A stretch of 64,000 nt of DNA, from NCBI RefSeq assembly GCF_002072955.1, contig NZ_LPUF01000006.1:1-64000 (forward strand). Direction: 5' to 3'. Both the position numbers and the translations under genes were made by a program. Every line of letters starts with the position of its first letter. Positions within the stretch are counted from its first letter, which is position 1. This DNA is from Methyloprofundus sedimenti. Its GTDB lineage: Bacteria; Pseudomonadota; Gammaproteobacteria; Methylococcales; Methylomonadaceae. Shown piece by piece: positions 44,651 through 56,341 of the stretch. The notes under the pieces are model-generated. The model searched no databases and was not told where the DNA came from. It saw only the letters and a list, made by a program, of their open reading frames with translations.

Positions 44651-46939
44651 TTATTCCACACAGCGCGCACCCAGCCAACCCTTGATGGAGGCTATGACCA
44701 ACGGTACGGCACCCAATAGAATAAATACCAAGTCACCGGGGAGTCGTAGCCATTCAATCAGGCGCGAGCGCTCGCTGCCAATGTAGTCAAGGCTACGCGC
44801 GTGCCAATAACCATGCTGAACGACATCCCAGACCTGTAACACGCCGCTGGGGAACAAACTCATGCTTAGCATTAGAGCCAGGCCGACGTTGCTGCCCCAA
44901 AATCCGACCTTAACGTATTTCTCGATGTCGACCCAGCGTGCTTCATCGCTGGTCTGGCGCAACACAAAAACCATCAGCGCCAGTGCCAGCATGCCAAATA
45001 CGCCCATCATCGCGGCATGGCCATGGTTGGGCGTTAGTTGGGTGCCGACCTCATAGTAGCTGACGATAGGCAGGTTGATGAGAAAGCCGAAAATACCGGC
45101 GCCGACGAAGTTCCAGAAGCCGACAGCCATCAAAAAGTAGAAAGTCCATTTATGCGGTATGGCGACTGATTTGCCGCAAATATCGCAATCAGCACGTGTG
45201 GTGCGGACAAAATCCCAGGCGTCCAGGGTTAGCAGTGTCAGCGGCACCACTTCCAGTACTGAGACCATGGCCGACATCGCCATGTTGACACTACTTTGGC
45301 CGGTAAAATACCAGTGATGACCGGTGCCGATCAGGCCGCCAGCGAAATATAAAATGGCATCGAGGTAAATCACTCGAAGCGCAACATTAAGTCGGGTAAG
45401 ACCCAGTTGATAAAACATCAACGCCACCAATGTGGTGGCGAAGAATTCAAAGAAACCTTCGACCCATAGATGAATGATCCAAAAACGCCAGGTATCGACC
45501 ACGGTGAAGTTAGTCTTGGCCCCATAGAAGAGTGCTGGTATGTAGAACAGCGGAATTGCCAGGGAAGCCAACAGAAACAACCTTACCAAAGGTTTCGCGA
45601 CTGGCTCACACAAGGATTTCGGCTGCACCAACTTAAATAATATCGCAAACCACACCAATAGACCGACAATCAGCAAGTACTGCCACAGCCGGCCGAGCTC
45701 CAGGTATTCCCAACCCTGATTGCCGAGCCAGAACCACCATTGACCCAGCATTTGAGAAATCCCCGCCCACTCACCTATCAGGCTGCCGCCTATGACCACG
45801 ACGAAAGCAGCGAATAACAGATTTACCCAGCCTGCTAACCAGCGCGGTTCATCCTTGCGTAGCGATCGGCCGAGAAACAAGGCCGCGGCGACAAAGGCAG
45901 TAGCTATCCAGAAAACGGCTAATTGCAGATGCCAGGTACGCATCAGATTGCTGGGAAATATGGCTTCCAGTTCAAGGCCGTAAAAACTGCCAGGGTCGGC
46001 GCGATAGTGTGCCGTTGCACCGCCCACCAAAGTCTGGGCAAGAAACAGCAGAGCGACCACCACAAAAAATTTCACCAGTGCTAGTTGACCGGCGCTGGCT
46101 TGACCCGGTAGCAGATGGGGATGTACATGCTCTCCGCTGCTAATCCAACCAAGATAATCGAATTTGCCGAACATCAATAATACGATACCAATGCCGGCCA
46201 GCAATACGATAAGACTCAATGCACTCCACAACAGTGCATCGGGAATGGCTGTATTACCAACACTAGGGTCGTATGGAAAATTGTTGGTATAGGAATAGTT
46301 CTCATCGGGGCGATTAGTCACCGAGGCCCAAGCTGTCCAAGTCACGAAGGCGGTAATTTGCTGCAATTCAGTTGGATCGCTGATCAGGCCACGCTGGAGT
46401 CCACCGTTACGTTCGGGGTTCAGAAAATAATCTGTCCAATAAGCAATCTGCTTATGGTAAGCCGTGGTTTCCGACCGGGTCAGATGCAGCGTTGTGCTGG
46501 CGGCATCATAATGATTGGTTTTTAGTTCGACCGCCACTTGCGCATACACAGCCGCTAGTTGACCGGGTGTCAGTGCAACTAGTGGCTGGTGATATTGTTG
46601 TTGCGCAATAGCCGTGGCAGTGTCTTCGCCGATACGGTGCAATGCCTCGGCCGAATAATCCGGCCCCAGGTATGCGCCATGCCCCCAGATACTGCCGTTG
46701 TTCATCAATCCGTATTTGAGAAAGATTGCCTGGCCCTCGCTGATGTCATCGCCGGTAAACAAGGGTACGCCTTGCGCATCAAGTACCTGTGTGGGGATCG
46801 GTGGAGCATTACGATAAGCCAACGATGTGATGGTGATTAGCCCCGCAAAGCCCAATACCATTACGATCAATACTGTGCGCAGCCACCATGGAGACAATGC
46901 AGGATTCTCTGCAATTAAGGGTTGTGCGGTAATATTCAT
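44651..46939 (-). CDS. norZ: Quinol-dependent nitric oxide reductase (qNor)
   Basis: A 762-aa heme-copper superfamily enzyme that reduces 2 NO to N2O with electrons from quinol, at the inner membrane. The N-terminal ~230 residues form the NorC-like periplasmic domain with no CxxCH, as in qNor. The 12-14 helix NorB part follows: MRTWHLQLAVFW (heme ligand), HLWVEGFFEFF (FeB His and Glu, about residues 488-493), GTGHHWYF (the other two FeB His, about 538-540) and HGHAAMMG (heme ligands). Both residues that are changed in nitric oxide dismutases, the FeB His and the Glu, are retained, so this is a true reductase. A good AGGAG lies before the ATG. A decayed reductase-like gene sits 38 bp upstream. 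Confidence 0.95.
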   Translation of the reverse strand: MNITAQPLIAENPALSPWWLRTVLIVMVLGFAGLITITSLAYRNAPPIPTQVLDAQGVPLFTGDDISEGQAIFLKYGLMNNGSIWGHGAYLGPDYSAEALHRIGEDTATAIAQQQYHQPLVALTPGQLAAVYAQVAVELKTNHYDAASTTLHLTRSETTAYHKQIAYWTDYFLNPERNGGLQRGLISDPTELQQITAFVTWTAWASVTNRPDENYSYTNNFPYDPSVGNTAIPDALLWSALSLIVLLAGIGIVLLMFGKFDYLGWISSGEHVHPHLLPGQASAGQLALVKFFVVVALLFLAQTLVGGATAHYRADPGSFYGLELEAIFPSNLMRTWHLQLAVFWIATAFVAAALFLGRSLRKDEPRWLAGWVNLLFAAFVVVIGGSLIGEWAGISQMLGQWWFWLGNQGWEYLELGRLWQYLLIVGLLVWFAILFKLVQPKSLCEPVAKPLVRLFLLASLAIPLFYIPALFYGAKTNFTVVDTWRFWIIHLWVEGFFEFFATTLVALMFYQLGLTRLNVALRVIYLDAILYFAGGLIGTGHHWYFTGQSSVNMAMSAMVSVLEVVPLTLLTLDAWDFVRTTRADCDICGKSVAIPHKWTFYFLMAVGFWNFVGAGIFGFLINLPIVSYYEVGTQLTPNHGHAAMMGVFGMLALALMVFVLRQTSDEARWVDIEKYVKVGFWGSNVGLALMLSMSLFPSGVLQVWDVVQHGYWHARSLDYIGSERSRLIEWLRLPGDLVFILLGAVPLVIASIKGWLGARCVE

Positions 46940-47788: not shown

Positions 47789-48961
47789 TTAATGGGCATT
47801 ATCATGATGCCATTTCGGCATCATAACAATATTGTTTGCATTTAGACCTTGATCTTTAAAAGTATCAATCGTCATTTTCACAGTCGATTTTTGCAAATCA
47901 ACTACCGTAATAGAACCGTCATTCATACCAGGTAAATTTAAAAGGTTATTTTGCACAAAGGCATAACGTTCATCAGGAGAAAAAACAACATGATGTGCGC
48001 CCTCTGCCGTAGCAATCGATTTTTCAAGTATCGGTTTAGCTGGATTTTTAATATCGAAAATATTTAAATAACCTGGACTTGCTGTCGTAATATACATTTT
48101 GTCAAGTTTATGGCTAAAGTAAATTTCTAAAGGAACGCCTTGTTTTAAAGGGTTAAAATCAAAAATTTGTGAAAAACTAAAATTTTGACTCATGCTATTC
48201 CAGACGCCTGTCCACAAGGTATTGCCAAACATGGTATTGATATAAAGCCGTACTGGATTTGATTTAGGTAAAAATACCGCCTCAACAGGGGCTGAGCCTG
48301 AAGGTGATGCTTTTTCTGACATTTTATGCGTAGAGAGTATTTTACCGCTACGGGCTTTAATGACCGTTACTGTTTCATCGGCATCTCCTAAATCAGTTGG
48401 GTGCACCGTGTTAGCAATGACAATTCGATTAATTTCATCGTTTATGCCAATACCGTGCGGATGGCGAATAAATTTTTTGCTTGTCGCTGTTTTGGGTGCA
48501 GCAATGACTTTAATCTGTTTATCTGTTTGTGCATCACCCATAATGACATTGCTAGAACCCATACAGGTGACATACCATCTTTCTTCATCGTCTGAAAAGA
48601 CCAGGTCTTCAGCTACCTGACACTCAGGAACAGAAATGGTCTTAAGTTCAAAAGGTTGTTTTGTCATATCGATTACTTGCAAGGGATTGCTACCCAAGGA
48701 AGCGACATAAGCTTTGGTCATATTTTTGTTATAAAAAATATGATGTGCCACTAAATCAGTAGGTAATGGAATATCCGTTACAATTTTTCCAAAATTACCA
48801 GAATTGAAATCAAGATCAATAATCGCTATGCCTTCCCGTTTTGGCGTTTGATCGGGTTTACTTTGATAATTAACTAACGCTAAAATTTCAGCTTGTGCCA
48901 GCATTGGATAAAGTAAAGTTAAAATAATAAGTGATTTTTTTAAAATATATGTTTTTTTCAT
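47789..48961 (-). CDS. Exported YncE/YVTN-type beta-propeller protein
   Basis: A 390-aa protein with a signal peptide (about 1-25, ending AQA) and seven-bladed propeller repeats. Blade signatures include AIIDLDFNSGNFGKIV, TKAYVASLGSNPLQVIDM, RHPHGIGINDEINRIVIANTVHP, MYITTASPGYLNIFDI, AHHVVFSPDERYAFVQN and SITVVDLQKSTV. Propellers of this type lack enzymatic motifs and often carry protein- or metal-binding roles in the periplasm. The second ATG (48961) has GGAG eight bases upstream; the first, at 48967, sits too close to it. It follows the OsmC gene after 48 bp, probably in the same operon. Confidence 0.85.
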   Translation of the reverse strand: MKKTYILKKSLIILTLLYPMLAQAEILALVNYQSKPDQTPKREGIAIIDLDFNSGNFGKIVTDIPLPTDLVAHHIFYNKNMTKAYVASLGSNPLQVIDMTKQPFELKTISVPECQVAEDLVFSDDEERWYVTCMGSSNVIMGDAQTDKQIKVIAAPKTATSKKFIRHPHGIGINDEINRIVIANTVHPTDLGDADETVTVIKARSGKILSTHKMSEKASPSGSAPVEAVFLPKSNPVRLYINTMFGNTLWTGVWNSMSQNFSFSQIFDFNPLKQGVPLEIYFSHKLDKMYITTASPGYLNIFDIKNPAKPILEKSIATAEGAHHVVFSPDERYAFVQNNLLNLPGMNDGSITVVDLQKSTVKMTIDTFKDQGLNANNIVMMPKWHHDNAH

Positions 48962-49009
48962 AAACATTTCTCCAGAGGATTAGAGCAGGTTAGTTACACT
49001 GCTTTATTT

Positions 49010-49567
49010 TCAATAGGGTAAAGGATGGTCTGTGACTTTTAACGATGTTTCAAAGTTAATCGGGTTCGCCAAATTAAATAAATTGGGAGAGCTCGCCTTA
49101 ACCCTTTCATGAATTTTTTCAAATTGTTCGGCTGTTGCATCTCCCGTTATAAAAACAGTAAATTTTACTGTGTCGTAGCCGTTCTTGATAGTTGGGTCTA
49201 TTCCCAGAAAACCCCGTAAATCAATATCTCCAGTTGTTTCTATGCGCAGAGTATCTATTTTAATGCCTTCAACAGCACAAAGTGTTGCGTACCCGACTAT
49301 TATGCAGGCATTCAAAGCGGTTAACAGATAATCTTGAGGGTTTGCAAATTGGTTGGTGCCTAAAAATTCAGATGGCTCGTCTACTTTAAGGTTAAAATTT
49401 CTTTCTACCTTTTCACCTCCTACTGAAAAAGCATTAACCTGTGTATCAGAGCGTGTGCCGCCTTGCCAGGTGGTTGTTACGCCCCATGAGGTCATACCTT
49501 GCTGCGGGTCGTTGGTAACTTGGCCTGTTATATTTTTTAATGCATCAACATCAATACCATTCAGCAT
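49010..49567 (-). CDS. OsmC-family protein
   Basis: A 185-aa OsmC/Ohr fold protein. It has PSEFLGTNQFANPQDYLLTALNACIIVGYATLCAVEGI (first Cys, about residue 88). In the C-terminal segment (KASSPNLFNLANPINFET) the resolving or second Cys of Ohr/OsmC is replaced by Ser, so the standard peroxidase two-Cys cycle is not available. Such one-Cys OsmC proteins may act on persulfides, thiols or other reactive species. The context next to SQR-like and rhodanese genes fits that, but it is inference. Confidence 0.87.
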   Translation of the reverse strand: MLNGIDVDALKNITGQVTNDPQQGMTSWGVTTTWQGGTRSDTQVNAFSVGGEKVERNFNLKVDEPSEFLGTNQFANPQDYLLTALNACIIVGYATLCAVEGIKIDTLRIETTGDIDLRGFLGIDPTIKNGYDTVKFTVFITGDATAEQFEKIHERVKASSPNLFNLANPINFETSLKVTDHPLPY

Positions 49568-49876
49568 AGATAAATCCTCATGAAAATAATCGTGTTTATA
49601 AATTAAGTTTGGTGAAAAATAAGATCAACAGGCTAAAGAGTTGCTCTACTGAACAGTAATCTGTGAAGTGAGAGGCTCTTTAGTCTGCATAACTGAGTGA
49701 ACAATAGTCTCTCCCATTAAGTGGGTCACTACAATTTAATGACCTGTTAAATAGGTTATGATTAAGATGATAACATGAGCTCCGCTAACGCTCGACCCAC
49801 TCTACCTATACTAGACACTCATATATTGCAAATCAATCTCTTTTGTTTTGTTGAAATTTTTTATCGTGCATAGAGA
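49568..49876. other. Intergenic 309 bp in the redox cluster
   Basis: No gene was found. An imperfect dyad TGACCTGTTAAATAGGTTA (about 49740-49758) slightly resembles the TGACC(A/G)GTCA motif found upstream of three genes in this cluster, but the second half differs, so I do not call it an operator. A promoter for the osmC/propeller genes probably lies here. Confidence 0.4.
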
Positions 49877-50290
49877 TTAATCATTTTTCATCTGCTGGCC
49901 AATAATACGCATAGTCCCGATAAAAAAATGCAATGAACGACGGACATCGGGATCGTTTAGGGAACTGATCAATTGAAACAAACCGGGAGGCTTTTCTAAT
50001 GCTTCTGTTTGTGCATTCGCCATACGCACAGCATTACCACCTGTCCAGCCCAGTGCTAAAATTTCCTCGCCTACTTTAGTAGTTTTTTCCAGTGCCGCTT
50101 CATCAAGAAATTCGATATTGTCTGATATGACTGACAATAAATCGATGATGTTGTCGAACCGACCGGCTTGTACTAAGGGAGCTGTTTTATCGATTAAGTT
50201 CTTAATGCCTTCGAGGGTTGCAGGGTCATTAAGGGCCGTATCCGACATAAGTTTTTCTACATTTGTATTTAACTGCTTTTCTTCAGACAT
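49877..50290 (-). CDS. DUF1641 family protein
   Basis: A 137-aa helical cytoplasmic protein. The DUF1641 pattern is visible in LEGIKNLIDKTAPLVQAGRFDNIIDLLSVISDNIEFLDEAAL and the C-terminal LFQLISSLNDPDVRRSLHFFIGTMRIIGQQ. DUF1641 genes are typically found beside FAD/NAD(P) oxidoreductases of the SQR type, as here. AGAGGA lies before the ATG at 50290. It follows the flavoprotein gene by 17 bp, so both are translated from one message. Its function is unknown; a membrane or partner-protein role is possible. Confidence 0.85.
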   Translation of the reverse strand: MSEEKQLNTNVEKLMSDTALNDPATLEGIKNLIDKTAPLVQAGRFDNIIDLLSVISDNIEFLDEAALEKTTKVGEEILALGWTGGNAVRMANAQTEALEKPPGLFQLISSLNDPDVRRSLHFFIGTMRIIGQQMKND

Positions 50291-50307
50291 AAGTAATTCC
50301 TCTGTAA

Positions 50308-51507
50308 TCAAACTATTCCACGTGCAACAGCCCAATAAATACCGCGATTAAATGTTTTACGCATTAATCCCCCTAGCTTGGTAGGTGGTGCGACTTGTAC
50401 ATCATGTTTATAGTCGTACCAGAGTGGCATGCCAGCTTCCAACCCCATTTGAGCGATCGCCTGTACTTTCCCATCATAGATAGCAGAGGTATAACCGCGA
50501 CGAATTTCCGAAGCGATATTTTCCACGATAACAGGTGATTGGTTATGACACGTGCCTCCGGCTTTACTCACTGGCAAATCAACGGTATCCCCCATCACAT
50601 AGACATTTTCGGTACCATACATTTTTAAGGTTTCAAAGTCAGTAGGTAACCAGCCTTCATTGTTTTGTGCTTCTGACTTTCCTGAATTAATAACGGCATC
50701 TACCGCACGGATAGGTGGAGTGGCCATTAAAATATCGAATTCCTGGGATTTTCCTTCCTCCGAATAAGCTATTTTTGCTTCGGGATCGACCTTATCTAAA
50801 GTAAAGCCGCGTTGATATTTAATATTTTTACTATCGAAAATAGTAGGCAACACATCACAGGTGGGTTTCTGTAAAAATAAACAATTACGCAATAATTGAG
50901 AGACGGTAGGATAACTGTAAATAATCTCTACACGGTCGCGCACGCCGCGTTTACGTAAATATTCATCAAGCATTAACGTGGTTTCGATTGGGGCAATACC
51001 ACATTGATGAGGTACGTTAGGGGTTTTGGGGAAATTGACCGTAATAAATATGCGTCCCTCTTCGATGGTGCGTAATTTATGCGCGAGTTGTTGCGCCGCT
51101 TTAGTCTGATAAAAATGATCACCTGCCTCTTTCAACCCTTCAATGCGTTCTGGCGCCGGAATACAGCCTGTTGAAATAACAAGATACTCATAATCGTATC
51201 GCTTGCCACTTTCACAGAGGACGCGATTTTGCTCAAATTCAAAGCCTTCCACGCCATCGACATGAAAAATAATTTCCGGGCGTAATAATGAACGTTGCTT
51301 ACGGACTAATTCATGAGGATGAAAAGCATTAAAAGCCACATACATATTGGCTGGCTTGTAAATATGGTTAGGGGAGTTTGAGAGCATCATAATCTCAATT
51401 TCACCTTTTAGAATCTCCGGATAAAATTTAGCGACTAAGTTGTTAGCGGTCATCGTGCCGCCAATCCCACCGCCAACGACGATAATGCGTTTTGTCGAGC
51501 TAGTCAT
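50308..51507 (-). CDS. SQR-like FAD-dependent oxidoreductase
   Basis: A 399-aa flavoprotein resembling sulfide:quinone reductase. The N-terminal FAD motif is VVGGGIGGTMTANNL; a second dinucleotide site is near the middle, and the C-terminal FAD clamp is NVYVMGDTVDLPVSKAGGTCHNQS. Cys residues sit in VISTGCIPAPERIEG and VPHQCGIAP, in positions where SQR carries its redox cysteines, with a third Cys in GGTCHN. The C-terminal tail (MRKTFNRGIYWAVARG) is amphipathic, as needed for quinone and membrane contact. It may oxidise sulfide or another thiol-type donor. A GAAGGAG site precedes the ATG. Confidence 0.87.
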   Translation of the reverse strand: MTSSTKRIIVVGGGIGGTMTANNLVAKFYPEILKGEIEIMMLSNSPNHIYKPANMYVAFNAFHPHELVRKQRSLLRPEIIFHVDGVEGFEFEQNRVLCESGKRYDYEYLVISTGCIPAPERIEGLKEAGDHFYQTKAAQQLAHKLRTIEEGRIFITVNFPKTPNVPHQCGIAPIETTLMLDEYLRKRGVRDRVEIIYSYPTVSQLLRNCLFLQKPTCDVLPTIFDSKNIKYQRGFTLDKVDPEAKIAYSEEGKSQEFDILMATPPIRAVDAVINSGKSEAQNNEGWLPTDFETLKMYGTENVYVMGDTVDLPVSKAGGTCHNQSPVIVENIASEIRRGYTSAIYDGKVQAIAQMGLEAGMPLWYDYKHDVQVAPPTKLGGLMRKTFNRGIYWAVARGIV

Positions 51508-51606
51508 AATGACTCCTTCAATTGATTATTCAGTGAAGGGTCAACTTGCCAGGTGCATCGATAATGAATATCTAGCACCGTGGACAAGAAGCCCCGTTTT
51601 ATTTAG

Positions 51607-51786
51607 TCAGTCGATTTGTTTAAGAGCGCCGGAAGGACATTGATTGATTACTTTGGTGATTTCAGCGTCAGTCGCTTTGTCCGGTTCGATCACAAATTGT
51701 CCGTCTGCCACTTTAAATACCTCGGGCAGTGATTCAACACAGTTGCCGGAGTGCGTGCATGTTTGTTTATCCCATTGTATTTTCAT
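51607..51786 (-). CDS. Divergent single-cluster ferredoxin (Fer4_19/DUF1271-like)
   Basis: A 59-aa small iron-sulfur protein. The cluster motif is TCTHSGNC near the start and NQCPSGAL near the end; only three Cys are visible, so a [3Fe-4S] cluster or a non-Cys fourth ligand is likely. The middle (ESLPEVFKVADGQFVIEPDKA) is typical of this short ferredoxin group. GGAGG overlaps the end of the upstream DUF4242 gene, nine bases before the ATG at 51786, which therefore is the start. It could pass electrons to or from the SQR-like flavoprotein that follows. Confidence 0.84.
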   Translation of the reverse strand: MKIQWDKQTCTHSGNCVESLPEVFKVADGQFVIEPDKATDAEITKVINQCPSGALKQID

Positions 51787-51791
51787 GGTAC

Positions 51792-52076
51792 TTAACCTCC
51801 GCACTGTTCTGCAGTTGTTGGATTAATCATGGTTTTTACTTCGGCAATAGAATTTGCCGGAAATTCACCACGTTCTGCATGTGTTTTAATGCTTTGTTTA
51901 TCGGGGGCGATATAAATGCAATAGATCTTATCGTCCGTTACATAACTTTCCACCCACTGAATTTGTGGCCCCATATCGTTCAGAATACAGCAGGATTTTT
52001 GTGATACTTGTTGTAATTCAGTTGCAGTTAATTGGCCTGCATTAGGGATTTCTCGTTCAATAATATATTTAGGCAT
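51792..52076 (-). CDS. DUF4242 family protein
   Basis: A 94-aa protein of the DUF4242 group. MPKYIIEREIPNAGQLTATELQQVSQKSCCILNDMGPQIQWVESYVTDDKIYCIYIAPD is the ferredoxin-like alpha/beta fold of this family, whose best-known members bind nickel. The metal role here is not proven. It has two vicinal Cys (SCC) and more at the C-terminus. It begins after its own operator-like motif (52098-52107). Its stop lies five bases before the ferredoxin start, so the two are coupled. Confidence 0.85.
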   Translation of the reverse strand: MPKYIIEREIPNAGQLTATELQQVSQKSCCILNDMGPQIQWVESYVTDDKIYCIYIAPDKQSIKTHAERGEFPANSIAEVKTMINPTTAEQCGG

Positions 52077-52097
52077 ATTGCCTCCTATGCGGTTATA

Positions 52098-52107
52098 TGA
52101 CCAGTCA
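52098..52107. promoter_or_regulatory. TetR-type operator-like site before DUF4242
   Basis: TGACCAGTCA, a TGAC..GTCA palindrome, lies 22 bp upstream of the DUF4242 ATG and just beyond the terminator of the rhodanese gene. The same motif recurs before the rhodanese gene (52620-52629) and, as CGACCGGTCA, before tetR. Confidence 0.65.
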
Positions 52108-52122
52108 TCTTTAGTTGGTCGT

Positions 52123-52157
52123 TAAAAAAAACGATATAGGCCATCATGGCCATATCG
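52123..52157 (-). terminator. Intrinsic terminator of the rhodanese gene
   Basis: Read on the minus strand: CGATAT and TGGCC pair with their complements around ATGATG-type loop bases (stem 52132-52157, one bulged base), followed by eight T (52123-52130). It lies 44 bp beyond the rhodanese stop, and the DUF4242 promoter/operator begins right after it. Confidence 0.82.
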
Positions 52158-52200
52158 CTTAAAAGTTTGTTAGTTAAAAAGTTTTTTAAATGATTAATGC

Positions 52201-52596
52201 TTATGACTGTGGTGGAATTTTCACCGCTAATTCAGCCGCTTTCCAGGCTGTAATGCCGCCATTTATATTCCTGATATTTTTAAAGCCCATTTGTTGCATC
52301 ACAGCCGCCGCCATGGCAGAGCGCCCCGAACTGGCGCAAAGTAATAACCATTTTTTATCACGATCCATCAATTCTTCACGGCGGCCCGCGTATTGACGGT
52401 CAGCCGCCGCTTCCAGTATTCCACGAGGAATATTTAATGCGCCTTCAATAGTACCTGATATAAATTCTGCAGGTTCCCGTACATCCAGTACCTGATAGCC
52501 TTCATCCAAGAGAGGTTTAACATTTAATACATCAATTTCGCGTATTTGTGATTTTGCTTGTTTAACAAAATCCATTAAGGTTTTTTCTTCGCTCAT
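52201..52596 (-). CDS. Single-domain rhodanese
   Basis: A 131-aa sulfurtransferase. The rhodanese CH2A/B-type patches are VLDVREPAEFISGTIEGALNIPRG and WLLLCASSGRSAMAAAVMQQMGFKNIRNINGG. The active-site loop CASSGR contains the persulfide Cys (about residue 87) and the anion-binding Arg, so it is probably active. It would move sulfane sulfur from or to thiols. It has its own operator-like motif upstream and terminator downstream. It lies between tetR and the DUF4242-ferredoxin-SQR genes. Confidence 0.93.
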   Translation of the reverse strand: MSEEKTLMDFVKQAKSQIREIDVLNVKPLLDEGYQVLDVREPAEFISGTIEGALNIPRGILEAAADRQYAGRREELMDRDKKWLLLCASSGRSAMAAAVMQQMGFKNIRNINGGITAWKAAELAVKIPPQS

Positions 52597-52619
52597 ATCA
52601 AAATCCTATAGTTATTAGC

Positions 52620-52629
52620 TGACCAGTCA
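52620..52629. promoter_or_regulatory. TetR-type operator-like site before the rhodanese gene
   Basis: TGACCAGTCA lies 24 bp upstream of the rhodanese ATG. The surrounding ~37 bp (CATCTT, TTGxTCGTTA and the A run) are nearly the same as at 52098-52134, so the whole promoter-side segment is duplicated between the two genes. Confidence 0.65.
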
Positions 52630-52642
52630 TCTTAGATTGATC

Positions 52643-52679
52643 GTTAAAAAAACGACACAACCGCTCGCTGTCTCGTTTT
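52643..52679 (-). terminator. Intrinsic terminator of tetR
   Basis: On the minus strand AAAACGAGACA pairs with TGTGTCGTTTT (one mismatch) around a short GC-rich loop, ending in seven T. It lies 25 bp beyond the tetR stop, followed directly by the rhodanese operator motif. Confidence 0.8.
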
Positions 52680-52703
52680 GCTTTGTTCCTACCCTACAAT
52701 CAG

Positions 52704-53291
52704 CTAGGCAATAAAATAATCATACAGTAAGGTGTCACAAAACTCTTGTAACGGTTGCACAGACTGTTCAATTTTCATCCGTAACAACGCGCCTTGCCAG
52801 TTGTTTACCAACAAGTTAGCCATAATTTCGGCGCTCCTGTCAGTACGTACCGTGCCTTCTTTCTGTGCTTGCAGTAATGCCTTATATTGCAGCACTTTGT
52901 AGCGCTCGACAGCTGATTTTAGTGCCTGATTGCATCGTTCACTGGTATCGCCAATTTCCCCCATCAGGTTGCCCAGTAAACATCCCCCTTTGTATCCATT
53001 CTTTTCCACTGCAACAATAAGCTCTGCATAGTAGTTTTTTAAAGCAGTGAGCGGGTCAACCTGTGAATGTTGTAGATGCCTCGTTAATAGCTGAATAAAG
53101 GGTTCTATATAATGGGTAATAGCTTGAGCAGCAAATTCTTCTTTGCTATCAAAATAGCTATAAAATGAACCTTTGGGCACCTGTACGGCACTTACAATTT
53201 CGTTAATACCTGTCGCATGATAGCCCTGGTTCATCAACAGATAAACACCTTGGTCGAGTAATCTTGTGCGTTTGGATTGCTTGTTTATCAT
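52704..53291 (-). CDS. TetR/AcrR-family regulator (NemR/AcuR-like)
   Basis: A 195-aa one-component repressor. The N-terminal HTH is TRLLDQGVYLLMNQGYHATGINEIVSAVQVPKGSFYSYFDSKEEF. The ligand-binding half holds KNGYKGGCLLGNLMGEIGD, where NemR-type proteins carry a reactive Cys, and a second Cys shortly after (SERC). A thiol-reactive signal such as an electrophile or sulfane sulfur is therefore plausible. A CGACCGGTCA site lies 16 bp upstream of its start, which suggests autoregulation. Similar sites before two neighbouring genes suggest they are its targets. Confidence 0.92.
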   Translation of the reverse strand: MINKQSKRTRLLDQGVYLLMNQGYHATGINEIVSAVQVPKGSFYSYFDSKEEFAAQAITHYIEPFIQLLTRHLQHSQVDPLTALKNYYAELIVAVEKNGYKGGCLLGNLMGEIGDTSERCNQALKSAVERYKVLQYKALLQAQKEGTVRTDRSAEIMANLLVNNWQGALLRMKIEQSVQPLQEFCDTLLYDYFIA

Positions 53292-53306: not shown

Positions 53307-53320
53307 TACGACCGGTCATA
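53307..53320. promoter_or_regulatory. TetR-type operator-like site before tetR
   Basis: TACGACCGGTCATA (53307-53320) has the palindromic core GACCGGTC. It shares GACC(A/G)GTCAT with the two sites before the DUF4242 and rhodanese genes. Its position is 16 bp before the start codon, where binding would block initiation. Confidence 0.65.
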
Positions 53321-53365: not shown

Positions 53366-54906
53366 GAATGGCACTTACTTAAGAATAAAACACATAAATC
53401 ACAGTGAGTTACTTTATTTTCTTCGGGTGTCCATTCTTTCTAATCACTGCTCTTGCTTCTTCTCTAGGTTTCATTAACAAGGAAAAAGGCTTTGGTCTTC
53501 TTTTTACTGCACGAGGCTCTATTCGACCAGAACGATTTCCAACCCGCTGCTGAGCAATTAATACAAATAATGATTCTTCAATGACTCCTGTACCAGTAAG
53601 AGCCGTCTGTTGAGTCCATGCCAACCACAATTGTAGTGTATGCTTAAAGCTAAGCTGGCGTGGTAATATATCGACTAATAAAGCCGTTTGAGCCATCAAT
53701 AGTCGAATCAGATTATAGGCCAGAAAATAGACCCATATCTCCTTTTCACTCATTTCGGGTGTTTTACAGCTGAGCGTTTCCATGCCCATCGTCGTTTTTA
53801 TATTCCGGAAATCAACTTCAATCTGCCAGCGTTTTTTATACAAAACCTTGAGTTCTGGTTTCGATGCTTCTTTAGGGCATAGCAATGTTGTTATGAGTAT
53901 CTTGCCATGAGTGCTTAACTCACGGATAAGTAACGTTTTCGGTGCAACATCATAGTGCGCTTGTGTCATCCAGTCTGGTTTGATCTTTGGTTTGGTTAGT
54001 TCGATTAAGTGATCTCTGGTGCCTATTCGTTTGCCTTTCCTAAAGTCAGTTACCCGTTTACGCGCGCCCATTTGCTCAAAGACGGCATCAATGCCTTTTT
54101 CACGCAGTGAAGCTAACAAAAAATAGGTACCATAAAAAGCATCGCCAAGAACAAGGTCTCCCGTATCAAAGGTGTCTATAATATTACGAAGCAAACTTTG
54201 CTCATCTGAGCCTTTTCCATTGAACCGTCCTATCGACGCATTTAAAACGGCCCCACTTGAAAGGCAGATAACGCCAACCAACCGACAAATTGGAAAACCA
54301 AGTCCTGGTTTTTGACCACTCTGCTGAGGATATACTGCCTGATTTTCAACGGTGTCGGGCATTGTTACAGTGGTTCCATCAATTAAATGTACACGCCTTC
54401 CATGCCAGCGCCATTGCTCAGGGATTTGACAGTTAATGAGCTCACCTGTCTGGCAAACTAGGTCAGAAACCATTGCTAATGGCAAACGCTGTCTTGCTCG
54501 ACAATAACCACCCGTAGAGGTACTAACAGGTGCAAGGCCACCAATGATACGTTTTATTGCTGCATCATTGACCGCTTTTTGACAGGAGCGATCTTCACTC
54601 AAGGCTTGTGCTAAAAAAATTGAAAGTGTTTCTGTGGGCGGATAAAGTCGCTCTCGATGTTCAGGTAATAAGGTGTCAATTCTTGATAGCAGTTCAGGGC
54701 AGGTGAGCAGGTTAAAAAATTGATACGAATCTGTCTTTTCTGCACATTTTTTTATTCTTTGTTGTTGGCAGCGTAAAAATTTGTTATTAATAAACATTAA
54801 GGCAGGTTCCTCGGTGATGGCTAAGTTGTTTTGTCGCAATCAGTTTATCATCGAACCTGCCTTTTTTAATATTTTCAGTAGCTTATATCTTAAGTAAGTG
54901 CCATTC
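53366..54906 (-). mobile_element. IS4-family insertion sequence with 11-bp target duplication
   Basis: Perfect inverted ends GAATGGCACTTACTTAAGA (from 53366, and its reverse complement ending at 54906) flank a single transposase gene. Outside them the 11-bp direct repeat GAGTCTGACTC stands at 53355-53365 and 54907-54917. Because this repeat is itself palindromic, the exact split between inverted end and target duplication is uncertain by a few bases. IS4 elements make 10-13 bp duplications. Confidence 0.9.
53409..54839 (-). CDS. IS4-family transposase
   Basis: An intact 476-aa DDE transposase. It has HLIDGTTVTMPDTVENQ (first D), LVLGDAFYGTYFLLA (second D) and the IS4 Y-x2-R-x3-E-x6-K signature in YKKRWQIEVDFRNIKTTMGME. 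The N-terminal region is a typical IS4 head (PELLSRIDTLLPEHRERLYPP). No internal stop. The element sits 75 bp upstream of tetR on the same strand, so it may affect tetR expression. Confidence 0.95.
   Translation of the reverse strand: MRQNNLAITEEPALMFINNKFLRCQQQRIKKCAEKTDSYQFFNLLTCPELLSRIDTLLPEHRERLYPPTETLSIFLAQALSEDRSCQKAVNDAAIKRIIGGLAPVSTSTGGYCRARQRLPLAMVSDLVCQTGELINCQIPEQWRWHGRRVHLIDGTTVTMPDTVENQAVYPQQSGQKPGLGFPICRLVGVICLSSGAVLNASIGRFNGKGSDEQSLLRNIIDTFDTGDLVLGDAFYGTYFLLASLREKGIDAVFEQMGARKRVTDFRKGKRIGTRDHLIELTKPKIKPDWMTQAHYDVAPKTLLIRELSTHGKILITTLLCPKEASKPELKVLYKKRWQIEVDFRNIKTTMGMETLSCKTPEMSEKEIWVYFLAYNLIRLLMAQTALLVDILPRQLSFKHTLQLWLAWTQQTALTGTGVIEESLFVLIAQQRVGNRSGRIEPRAVKRRPKPFSLLMKPREEARAVIRKNGHPKKIK

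Positions 54907-55172: not shown

Positions 55173-56341
<1,169 letters not shown>

Follow-up and report, generated by a model that had tools for sequence, protein, structure and literature searches.

The 64-kb window analyzed here, meaning the whole stretch of Methyloprofundus sedimenti DNA, is part of contig C6 (87,784 bases) of a 4.29-Mb genome and carries a minus-strand cluster coding for a TetR regulator, a rhodanese, a DUF4242 protein, a ferredoxin, an SQR-like flavoprotein, a DUF1641 protein, an OsmC-like protein and a beta-propeller. A preliminary description had placed these eight genes together, and gene calls and profile matches bear this out. We consider it reasonably probable that the cluster represents a transferable module for sulfur oxidation or detoxification, whose regulator was drawn from the methanethiol oxidation operon of methanotrophs. 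Comparison of related sequences brings out the module itself, its operator, the kinship of its regulator and the sharing of one operon slot by the propeller gene and the methanethiol oxidase gene mtoX. The preliminary description had not covered the presence of the same regulator clade and operator before mtoX operons, the frequent company of DUF4242, or the propeller in the mtoX slot. The genome contains a single AMO/pMMO-family match (PF02461), and the host thus looks like a methanotroph.

Operator Palindrome

The motif GACC(A/G)GTCAT had been noticed before tetR (52704-53291, minus strand), the rhodanese gene (52201-52596, minus strand) and the DUF4242 gene (51792-52076, minus strand). Exactly three copies of GACCRGTCAT are found in the window, at these places. 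With up to one mismatch the matches numbered 11, compared with 3.7 on average in shuffles, and none of 100 shuffles reached 11. Every exact copy is embedded in a longer near-palindrome, the 12-bp RYGACYRGTCRY. Operator O1 (53308-53319, ACGACCGGTCAT on the plus strand) before tetR and operator O3 (52097-52108, ATGACCAGTCAT on the plus strand) before DUF4242 match it perfectly, and operator O2 (52619-52630), 22 bases ahead of the rhodanese start, has one mismatch. O1 shares bases with the spacer of a TTGACA-17-TATTCT promoter (53331-53303) ahead of tetR. Of the three top-scoring sigma-70 matches in the stretch, this promoter alone lies on the minus strand; the scan as a whole gave 18 matches vs. 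16.8 in shuffles.

The scan of related upstream regions suggested in the preliminary description showed that homologous clusters do carry the motif. In 12 related cluster loci, RYGACYRGTCRY was present without mismatch in 10 of 10 usable tetR and 12 of 12 DUF4242 upstream regions (shuffle means 0.00), at 15-28 bp and 17-20 bp, respectively, from starts set by alignment. Allowing up to two mismatches to ATGACYRGTCAT, the rhodanese-gene operator was detected in 11 of the 12 loci whose rhodanese is nearly full-length and was missing in L020 and at the rhodanese remnants of L021 and L029. Binding of the palindrome by another factor, unrelated to TetR, appears very improbable, as the palindrome overlaps the tetR promoter spacer and recurs with the TetR clade in three gene contexts. 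Judging from these sequences, palindrome and TetR very probably belong together.

Link to Methanethiol Oxidase

On contig C3 of the same genome, the closest TetR paralogue (68%) has as its neighbor mtoX, the genome's sole SBP56-family match, at a locus with two perfect operators. This mtoX scores 785.8 bits against the NF052453 cut-off of 650, making its product a full MtoX member, and the gene following it codes for a protein that combines SCO1/SenC and MauG domains. The mtoX operon of Hyphomicrobium and Ruegeria shares with the C3 locus the beta-propeller oxidase gene and the SCO1/SenC and MauG neighbors, although the gene immediately ahead of mtoX in R. pomeroyi belongs to the IclR family (PMC5739008), whereas here TetR-DUF4242 takes that place. 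The window cluster differs from the mtoX operon in having no mtoX and a remote propeller instead. The occurrence of mtoX in methanotrophs is already known (PMC9003020). In Methylophaga, mto clusters hold genes for SQR and persulfide dioxygenase, so that a gene link between mtoX and sulfide oxidation is known there (PMC6548844), and for rhodobacterial enzymes the product has been reported to be sulfane sulfur rather than H2S (PMC10936201).

Among 200 relatives, mtoX was found in 138, at 141 places. Seventy of these places (30 loci given by the searches and 40 chosen, approximately one per genus) and four loci from outside the relatives were examined, 74 in all, of which 48 contain tetR and 49 DUF4242 (E ≤ 1e-8). 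Within 80 bp upstream and with up to one mismatch, the operator precedes tetR in 44 of 48 and DUF4242 in 33 of 48 usable cases; without mismatch it does so 25 and 28 times, compared with shuffle means of 0.27 and 0.24, respectively, and a largest shuffle value of 2. In addition, ATGACYRGTCAT, a stricter pattern, occurs with up to one mismatch between -700 and +60 of mtoX in 33/74 loci, as against 0/74 in 760-bp mtoX coding stretches and 0-1/74 in single-base shuffles. Among the loci from outside the relatives, that of G729, a genome of another class, shows the order tetR-operator-mtoX-MauG. By this comparison, the window module shares its TetR clade and operator with many mtoX operons of methanotrophs.

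Over 97 stretches, tetR and DUF4242 accompany mtoX in 41 and the propeller in 16 (L135 included). No stretch carries mtoX together with the propeller, while whole genomes can have both. In G025 and G091, the mtoX stretches (L060 and L077) lack tetR and DUF4242, and the propeller loci of the same genomes (L133 and L132) have DUF4242 upstream; L133 also has a broken tetR.

Several observations weigh against the proposed regulon. A genome-wide excess of the palindrome had to be rejected, since the 9 perfect matches in the genome fall short of the 22 for a reversed-pattern control, so that only position speaks for the operators. Four of the nine lie at the two tetR loci (window and C3), and the other five fall within open reading frames (ORFs) of 631, 234, 279, 115, and 64 aa; the match at C1:2001579, considered as a candidate operator, lies inside an ABC-ATPase-like ORF and is thus coding. 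The C3 operator before DUF4242 is itself located within an opposite-strand ORF of 110 aa, which was set aside. On C3, the DUF4242 gene that separates tetR from mtoX (L038 5882-6150) is frameshifted, the sole case among the 49 at mtoX loci, and the own mtoX operon may therefore not be fully intact. Furthermore, within the stretch examined, mtoX has neither tetR nor DUF4242 in 18/97 loci, and three of the four mtoX loci from outside the relatives lack both.

The TetR Regulator and Its Inducer

The regulator combines the TetR_N and TetR_C_13 domains and belongs to the AcuR/NemR branch. In a quick tree, the cluster TetRs formed one clade (SH-aLRT 100), which adjoins the mtoX-linked TetR of L081, from the genus of the window (support 92), and the propeller-linked TetRs needed four changes. 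It must be added, on the opposing side, that 36 of 77 inner branches of this midpoint-rooted tree are open and that the strongly supported branches alone permit a single origin of the propeller-linked TetRs.

Three cysteines, Cys104, Cys120 and Cys185, are conserved in 80/80, 77/80 and 63/80 related TetR sequences, respectively, and Cys120 is replaced by Val in three propeller-linked TetRs. A NemR-type Cys segment had been predicted, and the alignment indeed pairs Cys104 with the GC(L) Cys of E. coli NemR (4yze) and likewise with that of AcuR (3bru); being common to both, this Cys is not specific to NemR. The position of Cys120 is occupied by Met in NemR and Phe in AcuR. By analogy with other sulfane-sulfur sensors and their sulfur bridge, the second thiol would suit such a bridge between Cys104 and Cys120. 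On the whole, a sulfur-type inducer is slightly favored.

Alternatively, the TetR may sense an aldehyde or another electrophile (formaldehyde from methanethiol oxidation, a quinone or an acrylate-like compound) in the manner of NemR or AcuR, the sulfur genes then serving thiol repair. NemR is released from DNA by electrophiles or hypochlorite, its target genes being other than those found here. Formaldehyde is a product of methanethiol oxidation, which counts for this alternative, as does the alignment of Cys104 with the cysteines of both proteins. The AcuR model NF051457 is also the best curated match of the window TetR (151.7 bits, below the cut-off of 247). AcuR of Rhodobacter sphaeroides resembles the window regulator in its TetR branch, in an autoregulated promoter overlapping the operator and in a start codon close to the -10 box, the latter lying approximately 11 bases from the ATG of the window tetR and recalling the leaderless acuR transcript (PMC3017554). 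AcuR kin respond to acrylate, the inducer at the acuR-acuI-dddL operon, which speaks against a sulfur signal; the AcuR operator, however, reads TAATAGAC-n6-GTCTATTA (PMC3017554), unlike the window palindrome RYGACYRGTCRY. Moreover, the conserved module, with its core of TetR, DUF4242, SQR and DUF1641, has no aldehyde-removal gene. The core is also kept in six Candidatus Nitrotoga genomes in which searches did not find mtoX (completeness not given), and this favors an inducer not made by MtoX. We regard sensing of an electrophile as unlikely and prefer a sulfur signal.

As regards known sensors, CstR and FisR are also sulfide or sulfane-sulfur regulators of SQR/rhodanese-type genes, and together with SqrR, BigR and YgaV they are ArsR-, CsoR- or sigma54-type, not TetR. 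What these regulators share with the proposed role of the window TetR is control over SQR, rhodanese and similar genes (for SqrR, BigR and YgaV see PMC9995734, PMC5823870, PMC9774250). Among the matches listed in the open-licence PMC literature, titles and the beginnings of abstracts pointed to no TetR regulator of mtoX or of the window cluster, and 'TetR family' was absent from the 15 listed of 425 papers that concern persulfide, sulfane sulfur or hydrogen sulfide; the papers searched likewise yielded no regulator of methanotroph mtoX.

The Propeller

The propeller gene (47789-48967, minus strand) codes for a protein with no Pfam match and an N-terminus that looks signal-like by eye, and the protein is probably secreted. 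It was found in 47/200 relatives at 51 places, of which 30 were examined. Genomes without mtoX make up 23 of the 47 propeller-bearing relatives and 39 of the 153 others (Fisher p 0.004, kinship ignored). If completeness of 90% or more and contamination of 5% or less are required of the genomes, the respective figures are 22/46 and 23/112 (p 0.0009, kinship ignored). Outside the SQR cluster, 22 propeller loci were examined: in 15 the propeller is accompanied by tetR and DUF4242, occupying the mtoX slot behind them, in three by DUF4242 alone and in four by neither. The operator precedes tetR in 12/15 and DUF4242 in 9/16 propeller operons.

Fifteen propellers share an invariant set of residues (His75-His76, Cys116, Cys135, His171, His214, His325-His326, and His392), which would suit a copper site, and two paired His residues are conserved in MtoX within the stretch aligned to the propeller. 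Alignment of propeller and MtoX profiles with hhalign gave a probability of 91.8 (E 7.6e-7, 340 columns), and a profile search of solved structures placed 2ece second, though at an E value of only 0.05. An AlphaFold model (pLDDT 69.9, pTM 0.74) likewise retrieved 2ece, of the SBP56 family, as first Foldseek match in the PDB (TMq 0.70), but 1001 chains match at E ≤ 0.001. Thiocyanate dehydrogenases, which are copper enzymes acting on a sulfur compound, appear among the next matches. Kinship with MtoX is further called into question by the NF052453 score of the window propeller (31.2 bits, cut-off 650) and by the ease with which beta-propellers match one another. Going by these models, the propeller is probably a remote SBP56 relative and not an MtoX member. 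Whether it acts on methanethiol or a like thiol we consider an even question.

The SQR-Like Flavoprotein and DUF1641

The gene for the SQR-like flavoprotein (50308-51507, minus strand) is adjoined by that for the DUF1641 protein (49877-50290, minus strand; PF07849, 38 bits, cut-off 21). By sequence, the closest solved relatives of the flavoprotein include human SQOR, bacterial SQR and flavocytochrome c sulfide dehydrogenases. Five cysteines are conserved, namely C115, C169, C209 and C217 in 19/19 homologues and C320 in 18/19, and C169 aligns with the first of the two cysteines that we take to be the catalytic pair of human SQOR.

It could be argued that the SQR-like/DUF1641 pair is a general quinone-linked dehydrogenase whose substrate is not sulfide, and that rhodanese and ferredoxin are bystanders. 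The type III SQR model NF049943 gives 246.2 bits, below its cut-off of 525, and there is no Cys at the place aligned with the C-terminal Cys of SQOR; both results also count against the sulfur assignment we prefer. Furthermore, the pair occurs in pKLC102, Comamonas, Morganella, Proteus and Halomonas with no matches to the other cluster genes nearby, and some relatives have lost the rhodanese or ferredoxin gene or carry it in broken form. The solved relatives named above, the conserved cysteines and the linkage both to rhodanese and to the mtoX regulator nevertheless make a non-sulfide substrate rather improbable in our opinion, and the module probably serves the oxidation of sulfide or sulfane sulfur.

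The two genes are adjacent in 6/6 non-cluster homologues fetched (62-90% identity; L013, L027, L028, L030, L031, and L032), while a 26% SQR relative (L015) has no DUF1641 next door. On the conjugative plasmid pKLC102 (L030 9962-11594), the pair is situated within conjugation genes, near a DsbA-family gene. The role of DUF1641 had been called unknown, yet relatives coupling an enzyme to menaquinone have been characterized: in ForCE of B. subtilis, the DUF1641 partner gene also lies beside that of the catalytic subunit, although the latter is a Mo/W enzyme and not an SQR-like flavoprotein, and formate dehydrogenase deprived of ForE1 lost menadione reduction and most of its bound menaquinone (PMC8808070). 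By analogy, coupling of the SQR-like flavoprotein to quinone is proposed for DUF1641 here. The DUF4242/SCO4226-like small protein is a frequent companion of the TetR clade, and the characterized family member SCO4226 binds nickel (PMC4186839).

Distribution and Probable Transfer of the Module

The SQR-like protein was detected in 9/200 relatives including the own genome (E ≤ 1e-30), one of which (G165) carries SQR-DUF1641 only, and at 14 loci in the species collection. Of these, 11 (L016-L025 and L029) hold tetR, DUF4242, SQR and DUF1641 together, with a tetR start that is not intact in L018 and a DUF1641 split over two frames in L023. Only SQR-DUF1641 is found in Halomonas (L027) and Morganella (L028), and a Thiomargarita contig of 3,487 bases (L026) has propeller-DUF4242-ferredoxin-SQR-DUF1641, tetR not being visible on the contig. 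Of the eight genes whose synteny the preliminary description had proposed to compare, this four-gene core is conserved, and other members vary. The rhodanese gene is a remnant in L021 and L029, has in-frame stops in L014 and L024 and was not found in L022 and L025, so that it is dispensable as far as these loci tell. The ferredoxin (Fer4_19 with three Cys, as described earlier; 51607-51786, minus strand, ATG start at 51786) went undetected in L020 and L024, and L022 has a truncated version. Within the genus of the window, one relative (G005, L135) has kept tetR-rhodanese-propeller-DUF4242-ferredoxin-DUF1641, with no detectable match to the SQR gene. In G070, two copies of the cluster (L042 and L043) lie approximately 384 kb apart on C2, one with in-frame stops in its rhodanese.

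The core recurs in methanotrophs and in the six Nitrotoga genomes with different flanks; shared flanking genes amount to just four groups, each present at two loci. At class level the SQR gene is rare (2/369 genomes including the own, E ≤ 1e-100). Its NG86 synonymous distance from the window copy is 0.49, 0.37 and 0.38 for Nitrotoga L020, L021 and L024, compared with 0.79 for Methylobacter luteus, 0.67 for Methylomonas lenta and 0.49 for Methylotuvimicrobium buryatense, a relative that carries both the cluster and an mtoX. As the Nitrotoga genes are no farther from the window copy than those of its own family, and given the sporadic spread and unshared flanks, these sequence data indicate that the module spread by horizontal transfer. 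Distances for tetR give a less definite picture (Nitrotoga 0.57-0.87, M. buryatense 0.42, M. luteus 0.86). On plasmids, TetR matches came from three records, all below 60% identity.

Proposed Mechanism

From the above we infer DNA binding, the inducer and all enzyme activities of the following scheme, as well as any role of DUF4242 and the ferredoxin. A TetR dimer would bind RYGACYRGTCRY and repress its own promoter and those of the rhodanese and DUF4242 genes, and the same clade and operator would govern tetR-DUF4242-mtoX, in the own genome on C3. The DNA would be freed when Cys104, with Cys120 as candidate partner thiol, reacts with a small sulfur-containing signal, the likeliest being sulfane sulfur that arises from sulfide, or methanethiol. 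In the periplasm, the propeller may oxidize methanethiol or a small thiol like it in an MtoX-like manner, the flavoprotein and DUF1641 may pass electrons from sulfide to the quinone pool, DUF1641 taking the part that ForE plays in formate dehydrogenase, and the rhodanese may take up sulfane sulfur. The function first suggested for the cluster is borne out in part: sulfur handling under a dedicated TetR draws good support from synteny, the conserved operator and the mtoX link, and OsmC stands outside the conserved module.

A wider proposal is put forward tentatively, as somewhat less than an even chance: that the TetR clade is a thiol-based sensor of sulfane sulfur or methanethiol, with a fold not known for this task, controlling methanethiol oxidation across much of Methylococcales, that the propeller is a second, unrecognized methanethiol-oxidizing family replacing MtoX behind tetR-DUF4242, and that the module carried the switch into nitrite oxidizers. 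Methanotrophs can meet methanethiol and sulfide along with methane. If the proposal is true, one short palindrome gives the regulon and names its likely sensor, a replacement is offered where MtoX is missing, and DUF1641 and DUF4242 gain a context for testing what they do.

Neighboring Genes

The OsmC-like gene (49010-49567, minus strand), formerly listed as a cluster partner, had no counterpart at any related locus searched; its occurrence at the window locus only led to its rejection as a module member. Its product, described as a one-Cys protein, has two Cys in all and, by eye, one of the usual catalytic pair. Between the rhodanese and DUF4242 genes, a consensus scan placed a terminator-like hairpin with a T run (52139-52151, minus strand), one of six in the scanned stretch vs. 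a shuffle mean of 4.4. The nitric oxide reductase gene norB (44651-46939), 850 bases beyond the propeller, had no match in the related loci searched. Contig C6 was rejected as a plasmid or mobile element, given that the right-flank genes scanned include chromosome-type hsp33, queC and adenosine deaminase, no search having been aimed at plasmid genes. An IS4-family transposase gene (53409-54839) ends approximately 90 bases from O1. Finally, two overlapping frames at 55173-56272 match parts of a katG-like peroxidase gene, apparently a broken remnant, which is adjoined by an IS3-type integrase gene.

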